IMG/VR virus record: IMGVR_UViG_3300032265_000118
Span: 1 to 27,229 of that record
Strand: one strand, 5' to 3'
From: a virus
Length of the DNA stretch: 27,229 nucleotides
Each line of letters opens with the position of its first letter. The first letter of the stretch is position 1. The notes beneath the pieces were generated by a model, which worked only from the letters and a program-made list of their open reading frames with translations, was not told where the DNA came from and ran no database searches. The position numbers and the translations under genes are program-made. Shown in pieces: positions 22,601 to 26,915 of the stretch.

Positions 22601-24910
22601 ATGGCTGACCCATTAGAGCAATTTTTAGGCGGTGGCGGTGATGTTGCTGCGCCACCTAAACCAATAAATACAACTCGAATTCCATCTGACGTTCAAGCGC
22701 AACGTGACCAACAGCGAATTGCTATTCTTCAAGATGAATTGAAGAAAAAACAAACCTTGGCGGCACAAGGCAACACAATGGCGCAAGCTGATGCGGCTGC
22801 TTTGTTGCGTGAAATTGCCCAAACATCTAAAGGTTCAATTGCACCACAAAAAAGCACAATGGCAGGCATTCGACCTGATTTGCAGCCTGCACCAGCAAGC
22901 CAACCCGCATCAAGCGATCCATTAGAAGCGTTTTTGTCGGGTGCGCCTATGAGTCCTACCCAACCAAGCCAACCCAGTGCGGCTGGTGCTGGTCGTGGAA
23001 GCTATGAAGGATATTCTGTTGGCGATCAAGTTGCTGGCAACGTACAAAAACCTACAAGCAATGTGCGTCAGATTTTAGGTAAAGTGTTGCAACAAGGGTT
23101 TGAAGCCAAACAAGCTACACCTGGACTATTGGCCTCTACCGCTGATGTGATTGCTAGTGCGCCATCGGCATTAGCTGGCGTTGTTGGTTATGGAGCTGGA
23201 AGATTGTTCGGCGCTACGCCCGAAGAAGCGACTGCATCATCGCAAAAAGTTGCTGGCGCTATTGCCCAACCTGTTGGGCGTGTAACTGGATTGGCTGGAA
23301 CTCCGTCTTATCAACAGGCATTGCCTACTGTAGTCATGGATTACATAGGAAAAAATATTGGCGAAGGTGCTGCATCTATAGCCCAAAAATTTGGTGTAAA
23401 TAAAACTGACGTTGAAAATGCAATTAATGCTGGTTTAATGGTTGCTGGTGCTGTTGCGCCTAAAGCTATAGGAATGGTAAAACAAGCCGCAAAAGAAATA
23501 GAGTATGTTCGCCCTAATCAAATGCAAACACCGCAAGGAAGCATGGTTAGCGCTGGGGCTGCGGCTGTTCCTGATGCCACAACAATTAAACAAGCCTTAT
23601 CTGTTGCTACTCCTGAATTGCAACAAGCATTGCAAAGTATTCCAGCAGACAAAGTAAATGTCCCAACTTTGCAAAGACACATTGAGGCTGATAGTTTGCC
23701 TGTTCCTGTACGCTTAACAGAAGGACAAGCTACGGGTGATATTGTTAAATTATCCCGTGAACAAAACCGCAGAGGACAAGACCCATCACTTGCCCAAAGA
23801 TTCAATGAGCAAAATGGTCAATTGGTTGAAAATCTTGGCTTGATCCGAGAAAAAGCCGCACCTGATGTTTATGGTTCTAAAACTATCGAAAACAGTCAAG
23901 GCATTATTGATGCATATAAATCAATGGATTCGGCAAAAACTGCCGACATTACTCAAGCATACAAAGCGTTGGAAGATGCAAATGGCGGTCAATTTCCTGT
24001 TGATGGAAAACAACTTGCACAAAATGCTGAAGCAATGCTCAGTAAAAAACTTAAATCTGAATTTTTACCACCATCAATAAAAACTCAACTTGATCGTTTC
24101 AAGGCTGGTGAGCCTATGACATTTGAGCAATTTGAAGCTATGCGAACTAATCTTGCGGCAGAAATTCGCAAAGCTGAACGTAGTGGCGATGGTAATGCCG
24201 CCCAAGCATCAAGCGTAGTTCGTCAAGCATTAGAAGATTTACCAATGCAAGGAAGTGCCGCAGCTAACTTGAAACCTTTAGCCGATAACGCAAGATCACT
24301 TGCCAAAGCCCGTTTTGATATGTTGAAAAAAGACCCTGCTTACAAGGCCGCGGTTGATGATATTGTGCCTGCGGATAAATTTATTGATAAGTTTGTAATC
24401 AATGGTGTTAATAAAAACATTGGAACAATGGTTCAAAACTTAGGCAAAGATTCAGCCGCACATCAACACATGGCAGCGGGTACAGTTAATTGGCTTAAAG
24501 ACAAAGCTGGCATCATTGACGAATCAGGAAACTTTTCCCAAGCTGGTTACAACAAGGCTTTAAAGAAACTTGATGATGTTAAAAACTTACAAGAGATTTT
24601 CAATCCTGAAGCGGCAAGCCAATTAAAAACATTAGGCAACGTGGCAAGGTATACCCAAGCGCAACCCCGTGGAGCATTTGTTAACAATTCCAATACTTTG
24701 GTTGGTGCATTGGCTGAAAAAGCATCAGGGCTAACAAAAGCTGGAATTGAAAAAGGGTTGAATGTTGCTGTACCTGGCTTGCAGATCGGAACCACTGTTA
24801 TGGAAATGCGAGCAAGACGCGCCGCCGAAGCAGAAACTCGCAAATCATTGGAAACGGGCGCAGGCACAAAACAAACTGGTAAAAACAAAATTCAAGACTT
24901 GGGGAAATGA
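22601..24910 (+). CDS. Large ejection-type internal virion protein, third of three (769 aa)
   Basis: It starts immediately after the previous stop (TAA then ATG), with GGGAG upstream. The N-terminus ADPLEQFLGG recurs as SDPLEAFLSG at residues 105-114. A disordered Gln/Ala/Pro region is followed by a hydrophobic Gly/Ala-rich part (about 173-286: GLLASTADVIASAPSALAGV, VVGYGAGRLFG, INAGLMVAGAVAPKAIGMV) that could insert into membrane. A long helical region (KQALSVATPELQQALQSIPA, RTNLAAEIRKAERSGDGNAA) ends in a basic tail. It sits where P22 gp16 would be (about 609 aa). Function is assigned by position and composition. Confidence 0.6.
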   Translation: MADPLEQFLGGGGDVAAPPKPINTTRIPSDVQAQRDQQRIAILQDELKKKQTLAAQGNTMAQADAAALLREIAQTSKGSIAPQKSTMAGIRPDLQPAPASQPASSDPLEAFLSGAPMSPTQPSQPSAAGAGRGSYEGYSVGDQVAGNVQKPTSNVRQILGKVLQQGFEAKQATPGLLASTADVIASAPSALAGVVGYGAGRLFGATPEEATASSQKVAGAIAQPVGRVTGLAGTPSYQQALPTVVMDYIGKNIGEGAASIAQKFGVNKTDVENAINAGLMVAGAVAPKAIGMVKQAAKEIEYVRPNQMQTPQGSMVSAGAAAVPDATTIKQALSVATPELQQALQSIPADKVNVPTLQRHIEADSLPVPVRLTEGQATGDIVKLSREQNRRGQDPSLAQRFNEQNGQLVENLGLIREKAAPDVYGSKTIENSQGIIDAYKSMDSAKTADITQAYKALEDANGGQFPVDGKQLAQNAEAMLSKKLKSEFLPPSIKTQLDRFKAGEPMTFEQFEAMRTNLAAEIRKAERSGDGNAAQASSVVRQALEDLPMQGSAAANLKPLADNARSLAKARFDMLKKDPAYKAAVDDIVPADKFIDKFVINGVNKNIGTMVQNLGKDSAAHQHMAAGTVNWLKDKAGIIDESGNFSQAGYNKALKKLDDVKNLQEIFNPEAASQLKTLGNVARYTQAQPRGAFVNNSNTLVGALAEKASGLTKAGIEKGLNVAVPGLQIGTTVMEMRARRAAEAETRKSLETGAGTKQTGKNKIQDLGK

Positions 24911-25122
24911 TGGCTACACCCGAAATCGACTTGGTTAAATACGGCGTTCTTTGGCAAAAAGTTGAAGAGCTTGAAAAGAAAATTGACAAGCTAGAACATG
25001 GAATGGAAACGCTTTTAGCGTTGGCTAACCAATCTAAGGGCGGTTTTTGGATGGGCATGGTAGTTGTTTCTGCTTTGTCTACCATTATTGGTTATGCAAC
25101 CAACTGGCTACATAAGGGTTAA
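24907..25122 (+). CDS. Small coiled-coil plus membrane-anchor protein, XhlA/holin-accessory-like (71 aa)
   Basis: Two tandem ATGs (24907 and 24910) follow GGGGAA; either could be used. Residues 13-42 form a heptad-like coiled coil (VLWQKVEELEKKIDKLEH). Residues about 46-66 are one membrane span (FWMGMVVVSALSTIIGYATN) ending in a short basic tail. This layout resembles XhlA-type holin partners or small antiholins. It heads the membrane/lysis block before the holin and endolysin. The lysis role is inferred from layout and place. Confidence 0.6.
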   Translation: MMATPEIDLVKYGVLWQKVEELEKKIDKLEHGMETLLALANQSKGGFWMGMVVVSALSTIIGYATNWLHKG

Positions 25123-25124
25123 AA

Positions 25125-25787
25125 ATTGATCCTCTATCAATTCTCTTTGCTGCGAATGCGTGTGTTGCTGCTATTAAGCAAGGCTGTGACCTTTATAAGC
25201 AGGCTAAGACTTCTTTCATGGAGGTCAAGTCTACTGTTGAAGAAATTGTCGGGGATGTTAGACAAGTACGGTCGTTTTGGTCAAAGCTATTTGGCTCGAC
25301 CAAGCCTGTGGCGCAAAAGACAAAAAGAGAAAAGTTTGTAGCGGTTGATGAGACGCAAGTCATGGCTGACATTGTTAGCCAGCTCACACAGTTTTTCAAA
25401 TTGCAAGAACAGTTGGCGGCGCACATAAGGGAAGAAGAAGAAAAATCAAAGAACGTCTACGACCCTGATGCTAACTTGATGGAAGCAGCCCTAAAACGGG
25501 TAATGGCGCAAGATCAGATGGCGGCGCTGGAAGTGACAATTAGGGAAACAATGGTGTATCAGTCACCGCCTGAAATGGGTGCAATGTATTCCAAAGTCTT
25601 TGAAATGCGTGACATTATCAAAGAAGAGCAGGACAAGGCACGACAAAAAAGAGACAAGGAATCATGGCAACGCAAGGAAGAGGAACGGCTGCTAAGAGAA
25701 AAACAAGCGTATCTGCTAGCGACTATCCTATTCCTCCTATATATGTGGCTCCTAGTAGGAGTGTTGGTCAAGATTGGGAAAGCGTGA
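25125..25787 (+). CDS. Coiled-coil membrane protein with probable AUU start (220 aa)
   Basis: The frame after ATT at 25125 reads IDPLSILFAANACVAAIKQG, then CDLYKQAKTSFMEVKS, the usual N-terminus of a common phage family that begins M-D-P-L. No ATG, GTG or TTG lies in this frame between the stop at 25113 and ATG 25218. AGGGTT (25115-25120) lies 4-5 nt before the ATT, a normal ribosome-site spacing. Starting at 25218 would delete 31 conserved-looking residues. The middle is a charged helix (EEEKSKNVYDPDANLMEAAL) and a single membrane span lies at the C-terminus (LLATILFLLYMWLLVGVLV). Its last 124 nt also encode the next gene. The function is unknown; a lysis or envelope role is possible. Confidence 0.65.
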   Translation: MDPLSILFAANACVAAIKQGCDLYKQAKTSFMEVKSTVEEIVGDVRQVRSFWSKLFGSTKPVAQKTKREKFVAVDETQVMADIVSQLTQFFKLQEQLAAHIREEEEKSKNVYDPDANLMEAALKRVMAQDQMAALEVTIRETMVYQSPPEMGAMYSKVFEMRDIIKEEQDKARQKRDKESWQRKEEERLLREKQAYLLATILFLLYMWLLVGVLVKIGKA

Positions 25788-25933
25788 TTGGATATATTCT
25801 CTGTTGTTTGCTTTTGGGTATGTTGCTACCCTTATTGGGTATGTTGTACGTTGACATACTTGAGGCTAAACAAGAAGCAAAGCACCAACAAGAGCAAGTT
25901 CAAAAGTTGATTAACAAAGCAAAGGAAAAATAA
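25664..25933 (+). CDS. Small membrane protein overlapping the previous gene in another frame (89 aa)
   Basis: The ATG at 25664 has AAGGA just upstream. It begins ATQGRGTAAKRKTSVSASD and continues YPIPPIYVAPSRSVGQDWES, then a membrane span (VIGYILCCLLLGMLLPLLG) and a charged helix to KAKEK. The first 124 nt overlap the previous gene out of phase. Codons in this frame look normal for the genome, while those of the other frame do not, which supports a real overlap. The alternative is a 49-aa protein from GTG 25784, which overlaps the previous stop as GTGA. A role in lysis is suggested by neighbours only. Confidence 0.55.
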   Translation: MATQGRGTAAKRKTSVSASDYPIPPIYVAPSRSVGQDWESVIGYILCCLLLGMLLPLLGMLYVDILEAKQEAKHQQEQVQKLINKAKEK

Positions 25934-26427
25934 TGGATTGGTTAAAACAAATTGCACCCACCATAGCTACGGCGCTGGGTGGTCCATTGGCAGGTTTGGC
26001 TGTTGACGCTATCTCTAAAGCCGTTGGAATCGACCCTAAAGACGTTCAATCTACCATTGATCAAGGCAAGCTATCAGCAGAGCAAATAGGAGCGCTTAAA
26101 CAGGCTGAATTAGCGATGGCAGCTCGCGCCCAAGAGTTAGGTTTAGACTTTGAAAAGATTGCCGTAGATGACCGCAAATCAGCTCGGCAAATGCAAGTCT
26201 CTACGCAGTCTTACATACCTGGTTTGATGGCAATTGCCGTAACCCTTGGGTTCTTTGGCATCTTAGTTGGCTTAATGACTGAACACTTTAAAACATCTGA
26301 TGCGTTGATGCTGATGTTAGGCAGTTTGGGTACAGCTTGGACGGGAATTATTGCTTTCTACTTTGGTAGTTCTGCTGGTAGCCAAAAAAAGGACGAACTA
26401 CTCCATAAATCGAGTCCAACTCCATGA
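25933..26427 (+). CDS. Holin of the 3TM/two-span type (164 aa)
   Basis: It starts overlapping the upstream stop (TAATG). The N-terminus is amphipathic and hydrophobic (WLKQIAPTIATALGGPLAGL). After a helical region with VDDRKSARQMQ, two strong spans follow: about residues 95-117 (GLMAIAVTLGFFGILVGLM) and 124-146 (ALMLMLGSLGTAWTGIIAFY). A short Lys-containing tail ends it. This arrangement is typical of phage 3TM holins, which make holes in the inner membrane at the end of infection. The gene overlaps the endolysin by 4 nt. Confidence 0.82.
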   Translation: MDWLKQIAPTIATALGGPLAGLAVDAISKAVGIDPKDVQSTIDQGKLSAEQIGALKQAELAMAARAQELGLDFEKIAVDDRKSARQMQVSTQSYIPGLMAIAVTLGFFGILVGLMTEHFKTSDALMLMLGSLGTAWTGIIAFYFGSSAGSQKKDELLHKSSPTP

Positions 26428-26852
26428 ACCTTACAGAACATTTTACACTTGAAGAGCTAACTGTTACCGACCATCGGCAGTTTGACAACACCCCAAATGA
26501 TGCAGAAATTGCAAATCTTGTTCGGCTGGCTGAATTCTTAGAGCAAGTCAAAGAAGTGCTTGGTGGCAAGCCAATCATGGTGAACAGCGCCTTTCGCAGT
26601 GCTGAAGTAAACCAAGCCGTTGGATCGTCTGACAAGTCTCAGCATCGACGTGGGTGCGCTGCTGATATTAGAGTGCCAGGCATGACCCCTGATGAGGTTG
26701 TCAAAGCCATCATTGCATCGGGCTTACCCTATGACCAGTGCATTCGTGAATTCAATTCTTGGACACACGTTTCAATTCCAAACGCTGATGATGCAAAACC
26801 TAGACTAATGTCGTTAATAATAGACAAATCAGGGACAAGAGAATACGCTTGA
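26424..26852 (+). CDS. M15-family peptidase endolysin (142 aa)
   Basis: Zinc-binding residues of the M15_3/VanY-like fold are present: H74 and D81 in SQHRRGCAAD (the SxHxxGxAxD motif), and H115 in SWTHVSIP. R58 in SAFRS and E109 in REF fit the substrate and catalytic positions. The product should cut peptide cross-links of peptidoglycan (D-Ala-D-Ala carboxypeptidase or L-Ala-D-Glu endopeptidase type). There is no signal peptide, so the holin is needed for release. It starts 4 nt before the holin stop. Confidence 0.88.
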   Translation: MNLTEHFTLEELTVTDHRQFDNTPNDAEIANLVRLAEFLEQVKEVLGGKPIMVNSAFRSAEVNQAVGSSDKSQHRRGCAADIRVPGMTPDEVVKAIIASGLPYDQCIREFNSWTHVSIPNADDAKPRLMSLIIDKSGTREYA

Positions 26853-26876: not shown

Positions 26877-26915
26877 TGATTTAGTTTAATTTCAGGCAAC
26901 TTCAATGGAGTTGTC

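Follow-up and report, generated by a model that had tools for sequence, protein, structure and literature searches.

The window, which is the whole 27,229 nt stretch of viral DNA analysed here, contains an open frame at 25125 to 25787 on the forward strand, as are all the features described below. It encodes 220 aa and reads IDPLSILFAANACVAAIK... in the window translation; written with isoleucine at codon 1 the same frame is (I)DPLSILFAANACVAAIKQGCDLYKQAKTSFMEVK..., and as a coding sequence initiated at codon 1 it is (M)DPLSILFAANACVAAIK.... Codon 1 is ATT (25125 to 25127). An in-frame TAA at 25113 to 25115 excludes a canonical start up to 25218: the codons GGG TTA AAA lie between this stop and the ATT, and the first in-frame ATG, GTG, TTG or CTG after the stop is the ATG at 25218 to 25220 (codon 32). 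This confirms the original prediction of an in-frame ATT at 25125 with no ATG, GTG or TTG before 25218. The AGGGTT that had also been noticed before the ATT overlaps a Shine-Dalgarno (SD) sequence, AAGGG (25114 to 25118), which is separated from the ATT by a 6 nt spacer (TTAAAA) and agrees with the SD pattern of relatives. A gene call restricted to canonical starts drops the 31 codons from 25125 to 25217.

A small ORF (24907 to 25122, 71 aa) with a C-terminal hydrophobic segment lies immediately upstream in another frame; its TAA (25120 to 25122) ends 2 nt before the ATT. Only close relatives (L001 to L007) keep it in front of the gene, and no family match was found for it at a useful E-value. 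Downstream, a small membrane-like ORF (25664 to 25933, 89 aa), which two related phages also conserve, begins within the gene: it shares 124 nt with its 3' end but is read in a different frame. It is followed by a 164 aa protein (25933 to 26427) belonging to phrog_1544 (unknown function, E 2.9e-16), which has two hydrophobic segments and is holin-like by position, and by an endolysin (26424 to 26852) of the peptidase M15_3 type (PF08291, E 5.7e-20; phrog_894 endolysin, E 1.2e-37). The small overlapping ORF, the phrog_1544 protein and the M15 endolysin downstream make late expression likely. Genes of the family lie beside cell-lysis genes of freshwater phages, and it is the proximity of the endolysin gene that suggests a role in lysis, which is plausible; searches of Pfam, PHROGs and PDB and by fold found no similarity to known holins or spanins.

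The coding sequence is supported by its translation, by a weak match of the product to phrog_12255 (unknown function) and by a helical structure prediction. An AlphaFold2 model based on 44 family members (pLDDT 78.5, pTM 0.57) has helices at residues 3-55, 76-110, 118-145 and 149-219, so the product is predicted to be all-helical with a hydrophobic stretch in the last helix (149-219). A start at codon 32 would cut the first helix, which is predicted to span residues 3-55. The invariant residues include D2, P3, L7, A10 and G20. A structure search of BFVD gave only uncultured phage proteins of unknown function and PDB had no significant match. One BFVD relative, A0A6J7WAV8 (191 residues), would have about the length of a gene call made from codon 32. 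A search of genome contigs found no relative.

To look at codon 1 in homologues we used several sets. Scanning viral contigs at the protein level gave 358 relatives; the 80 that were kept have ATT or GTG only at the position of the window's ATT. An unbiased scan used a DNA pattern starting at codon 2 and then two distant relatives, from GenBank phages of Manatee Spring, as queries. Because the pattern begins at codon 2, the codon 1 count is not biased by the pattern-derived part of the set. A profile search over all fetched sequences then gave 316 members, 230 of them distinct, which are metagenomic contigs and not independent counts. The 133 distinct members of the window-like subfamily divide into 108 with ATT at codon 1 and 25 with GTG; ATG, TTG, ATC and ATA do not occur there. 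An alignment with homologues had been proposed as the way to see whether ATG stands here, and window-like members show only ATT or GTG. Probable AUU initiation at 25125, as originally predicted, is strongly supported by this comparison.

The rest of the family is more varied. In subfamily B (n=36) codon 1 is GTG in 30 members and ATA in one, and three (L209, L212 and L216) have ATT without an alternative. Subfamily C (n=55) was picked by a loose motif and includes five window-like members; the set has ATG 29 times, GTG 12 times and ATT without an in-frame alternative six times (L248 and L270 being true C members). In some members of B and C a GTG or ATG lies one codon upstream (GTG CTT GAC), and the handful of remaining members have GTG, TTG or a GTG one codon up. 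ATG at codon 1 is found mainly in a distant branch and ATC was not seen at codon 1 in any member examined. One distant member (L215:3001) has ATA at the start place with a good SD and no in-frame alternative, a possible AUA start.

For 102 of the 108 window-like ATT members the stretch from the in-frame stop to the ATT is free of ATG, GTG, TTG and CTG, and many have TAA directly before the ATT. In five of the other six a CTG is found seven codons upstream, before the SD; the sixth reaches the contig end without any of these codons. The ATT does not behave as an ordinary isoleucine codon: downstream isoleucine codons in these genes are ATC (395), ATA (268) and ATT (247, or 27%), and the invariant isoleucines at positions 6 and 17 are mostly ATC, yet ATT is fixed at codon 1. 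In a tree built without codon 1 (a fast protein tree), at least 23 changes between ATT and GTG are required within the window-like set. The gene has the sequence features looked for in natural AUU-start genes of the infC, pcnB and cvfC1 kind: the codon is either conserved in relatives or replaced only by another start codon, an SD lies at a suitable distance and a canonical alternative is absent. Chance, and a base error, which had been raised as a possible explanation, are excluded by the number of contigs with ATT: a contig of 5,035 bases (L001) has identical bases at the site and ATT is present in the 108 distinct window-like homologues. More than 100 related phages keep AUU and swap it only for GUG, which indicates that the weak start is genuine and conserved rather than a product of faulty sequencing.

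Conservation begins where the AUU start would place it. Compared column by column, the DNA upstream of codon 1 is close to random except for the SD (-10 to -7) and an A at -2. Within codons 2-31 the first and second positions are mostly near-invariant and the third positions vary, with the amino acids nearly fixed, which indicates that these codons are translated in this frame. Homology ends exactly at codon 1, and ATT is found behind 28 of 34 unrelated upstream-gene clusters. Many different, unrelated genes precede this one from phage to phage, and with homology breaking off at its start codon it looks as if the gene moved as a cassette or its upstream neighbour were often exchanged. Synonymous choice is unusually fixed across the subfamily at CTC TTT (codons 7-8) and TCT (codon 30). 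We considered an mRNA hairpin hiding the SD by means of CTC TTT, but comparison of 60 sequences with synonymous shuffles gave no such signal, nor any sign of selection on mRNA structure around the start.

Comparison of the window's ORFs with two related phages singles out the gene at 25125: no other forward-strand gene has, away from overlaps with other genes, a conserved in-frame stretch of tens of codons ahead of its first canonical start. Where the forward ORFs at 1304, 11043, 25537 and 26321 gave a signal, it was confined to stretches shared with other coding DNA, and for the ORF at 26880 it consisted of 12 codons in nearly identical flanking DNA. AUU initiation as a general habit of these phages was rejected. 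The GenBank models of two relatives, L082 (MW202484.1) and L083 (MW202462.1), overlook the GTG start and leave out the first 7-8 codons of the conserved N-terminus, which suggests that public annotations of the family are too short.

The two start codons differ in their context. Before ATT (113 ATT-start members of the whole family) the SD has a median dG of -4.7 and the duplex is most often 5 nt from the start; in 93 of the 113 a duplex of dG <= -4 lies 2-7 nt upstream, again with a mode of 5. The SD before GTG (69 members) is weaker, with a median dG of -2.8. GTG is preceded by AT, giving ATGTG, in 56 of the 69 GTG starts of the whole family and in 24 of 25 in the window's subfamily. GTG types that have an SD usually have it 8-9 nt from the GTG, which is 6-7 nt from the out-of-frame ATG; in L014, L035, L056, L082 and most other GTG-start members of subfamilies A and B this ATG at -2 is the better spaced of the two. 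It may be a decoy, an effect of context on the initiator tRNA or a relic. The ATGTG overlap was absent from two GTG-start ORFs checked elsewhere in the window. The ATT is always followed by GA, so that a TTG in the +1 frame lies at nearly equal SD spacing. Finally, the gap between the upstream stop and the start is 0-2 nt in 55 of the 105 ATT members for which an upstream ORF was found, and such short gaps make translational coupling to the upstream ORF likely.

We weighed this start against three other ways of reading the locus. The ATG at 25218 (Met32) is the first canonical start in frame and codon 32 is ATG in 125 of the 133 window-like members; moreover, GenBank models of relatives, and probably UniProt models, begin inside the protein. 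If translation began there, the upstream homology would be incidental or belong elsewhere, but codons 2-31 vary at third positions under protein-level selection, and distant subfamilies keep D2, P3, L7, A10 and G20 and not Met32. In eight ATT members codon 32 encodes valine and the next methionine is at 86-104, which shows that this ATG is not the start of the family, and there is no SD before codon 32 (median dG -0.9 compared with -4.7 before ATT). The competing start named in the original prediction can thus be rejected as highly improbable. Readthrough of a stop codon or a frameshift, which would make the gene the 3' part of the upstream ORF, would fit the in-frame TAA directly before ATT in many relatives and the stop that lies 2 nt away in the window. 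The 34 upstream-gene clusters are, however, unrelated; their reading frames differ, the gap to the gene ranges from -5 to 45 nt, and sequence conservation stops at codon 1. ATT stands behind 28 of these clusters, so fusion or readthrough cannot be the general explanation, and we regard the probability of this reading as negligible. Somewhat less remote, though still very unlikely, is initiation in the +1 frame, at TTG 25126 or at the ATG of ATGTG, with a shift into the gene frame within the first codon. Both types do have a standard start codon in that frame, AT precedes most GTG starts and the SD of the GTG type is spaced for that ATG. Against this, the two types share no slippery sequence, the peptides of the +1 frame show no conservation (some of them ending early), and the TTG is a forced by-product of ATTGAY. 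The members with GTG one codon up (GTG CTT GAC) often also have AT before the GTG, so the AT is tied to the GTG start rather than to the D-P frame. In the wider family ATG, GTG, TTG and ATT share one codon position, as direct initiation predicts. A separate overlapping gene in the +1 frame, read from the TTG or ATG, was also considered and rejected, as its peptide is not conserved and in some members stops after about 40 codons. Taken together, the comparative data indicate that the gene at 25125 to 25787 is translated from AUU 25125, to which we give a probability of about 0.95.

A different question is whether the weakness of an AUU start has a function. An older M-I-D-P start (ATG ATT GAC) may have lost its ATG, a good SD having been sufficient for AUU to take over. 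A distant relative at the same place in the operon (L085) starts ATG ATC GAC CCC and a member of subfamily B (L205) reads ATG ATT GAC, so such a path exists, and the strong SD would compensate for the loss. However, AUG is one base from AUU and is usually the best start codon, and it occurs in none of the 133 window-like members despite at least 23 switches between AUU and GUG. A two-base change without its one-base intermediate suggests selection against AUG or recombination of ready-made start regions. We therefore consider weakness without function unlikely, though a real contender.

The original prediction named infC as the known case of an AUU start. That infC uses AUU is correct but the statement is incomplete, since pcnB and cvfC1 of Staphylococcus aureus do likewise. 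The E. coli infC gene starts at ATT and its product, IF3, represses non-canonical starts (PMC5472188). Like the phage gene, infC has a natural AUU start with an SD and no canonical alternative, and its expression is under the control of initiation fidelity; it differs in being a cellular housekeeping gene whose autoregulation by IF3 has been shown experimentally. By its title, the study of Binns and Masters (2002), cited in PMC13009471, adds pcnB as a second chromosomal case in E. coli. That is a single cellular gene, whereas the phage family is widespread and alternates between AUU and GUG. The AUU of pcnB is said to limit the yield of poly(A) polymerase I, a protein thought to be harmful in excess. 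In S. aureus cvfC1 has AUU with a strong SD, ccpN and citZ have AUA, and in minimal medium reporters with the non-canonical starts reached approximately 10% of the yield from AUG (PMC13009471). These genes share with the phage family a conserved non-canonical start with a strong extended SD, but they are Gram-positive chromosomal genes studied by ribosome profiling and reporters. Repression by IF3 has also been demonstrated for sigR of Streptomyces, which starts at GTC (PMC5472188). Its start is likewise rare and missed by gene finders, and the sigR product is kept below that of its operon partner; the codon differs and sigR is not a phage gene. A limited search of the open-access literature did not turn up a conserved AUU start in any phage gene family. 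AUU starts themselves are known, from infC, pcnB and cvfC1, but a conserved one in a phage gene family appears to be new, although this is not certain.

In the mechanism that we propose, the SD AAGGG, 6 nt upstream, would recruit ribosomes to AUU 25125, where ribosomes just ending the upstream ORF 2 nt away probably also initiate. Initiation with fMet on AUU would give the 220-residue protein beginning M-D-P. As AUU is a poor start, less of this product would be made than of the others encoded in the late operon. Selection would maintain this weakness, AUU with a strong, tightly spaced SD alternating with GUG with a weak SD and AUGUG, and never giving way to AUG in the window's subfamily; both types may be ways to keep initiation weak. 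The low yield may be needed since the product is probably a membrane protein and possibly harmful in excess, and initiation may depend on IF3 and on coupling. The simplest reading of the sequences would be that start regions have been swapped together with upstream DNA by recombination, every accepted version being weak.

The comparison of homologues establishes that translation starts at codon 1, that AUU is conserved and alternates with GUG, and that the SDs of the two types differ, and for the start and its conservation we hold this explanation with considerable confidence. We are less sure of its functional part. Selection for weak expression is the reading to which we lean. Control by IF3 is plausible by analogy with the bacterial genes. 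The full model, in which the family keeps its start weak in two interchangeable ways (AUU with a strong, tight SD, or GUG under a decoy AUG that takes the SD) and a late membrane protein is metered via start-codon fidelity, in an amount set by host IF3 and growth state, is tentative and we would not give it even odds.

Few natural AUU starts are known and nearly all are in single cellular genes; here the start is found in more than 100 sequences. Standard gene finding removes about 31 residues from these proteins. The family amounts to a natural experiment in which AUU has been kept and has been exchanged many times with GUG but never with AUG, and it offers ready natural pairs of start regions for studying selection for weak starts, the use of IF3 by phages and the AUGUG overlap.
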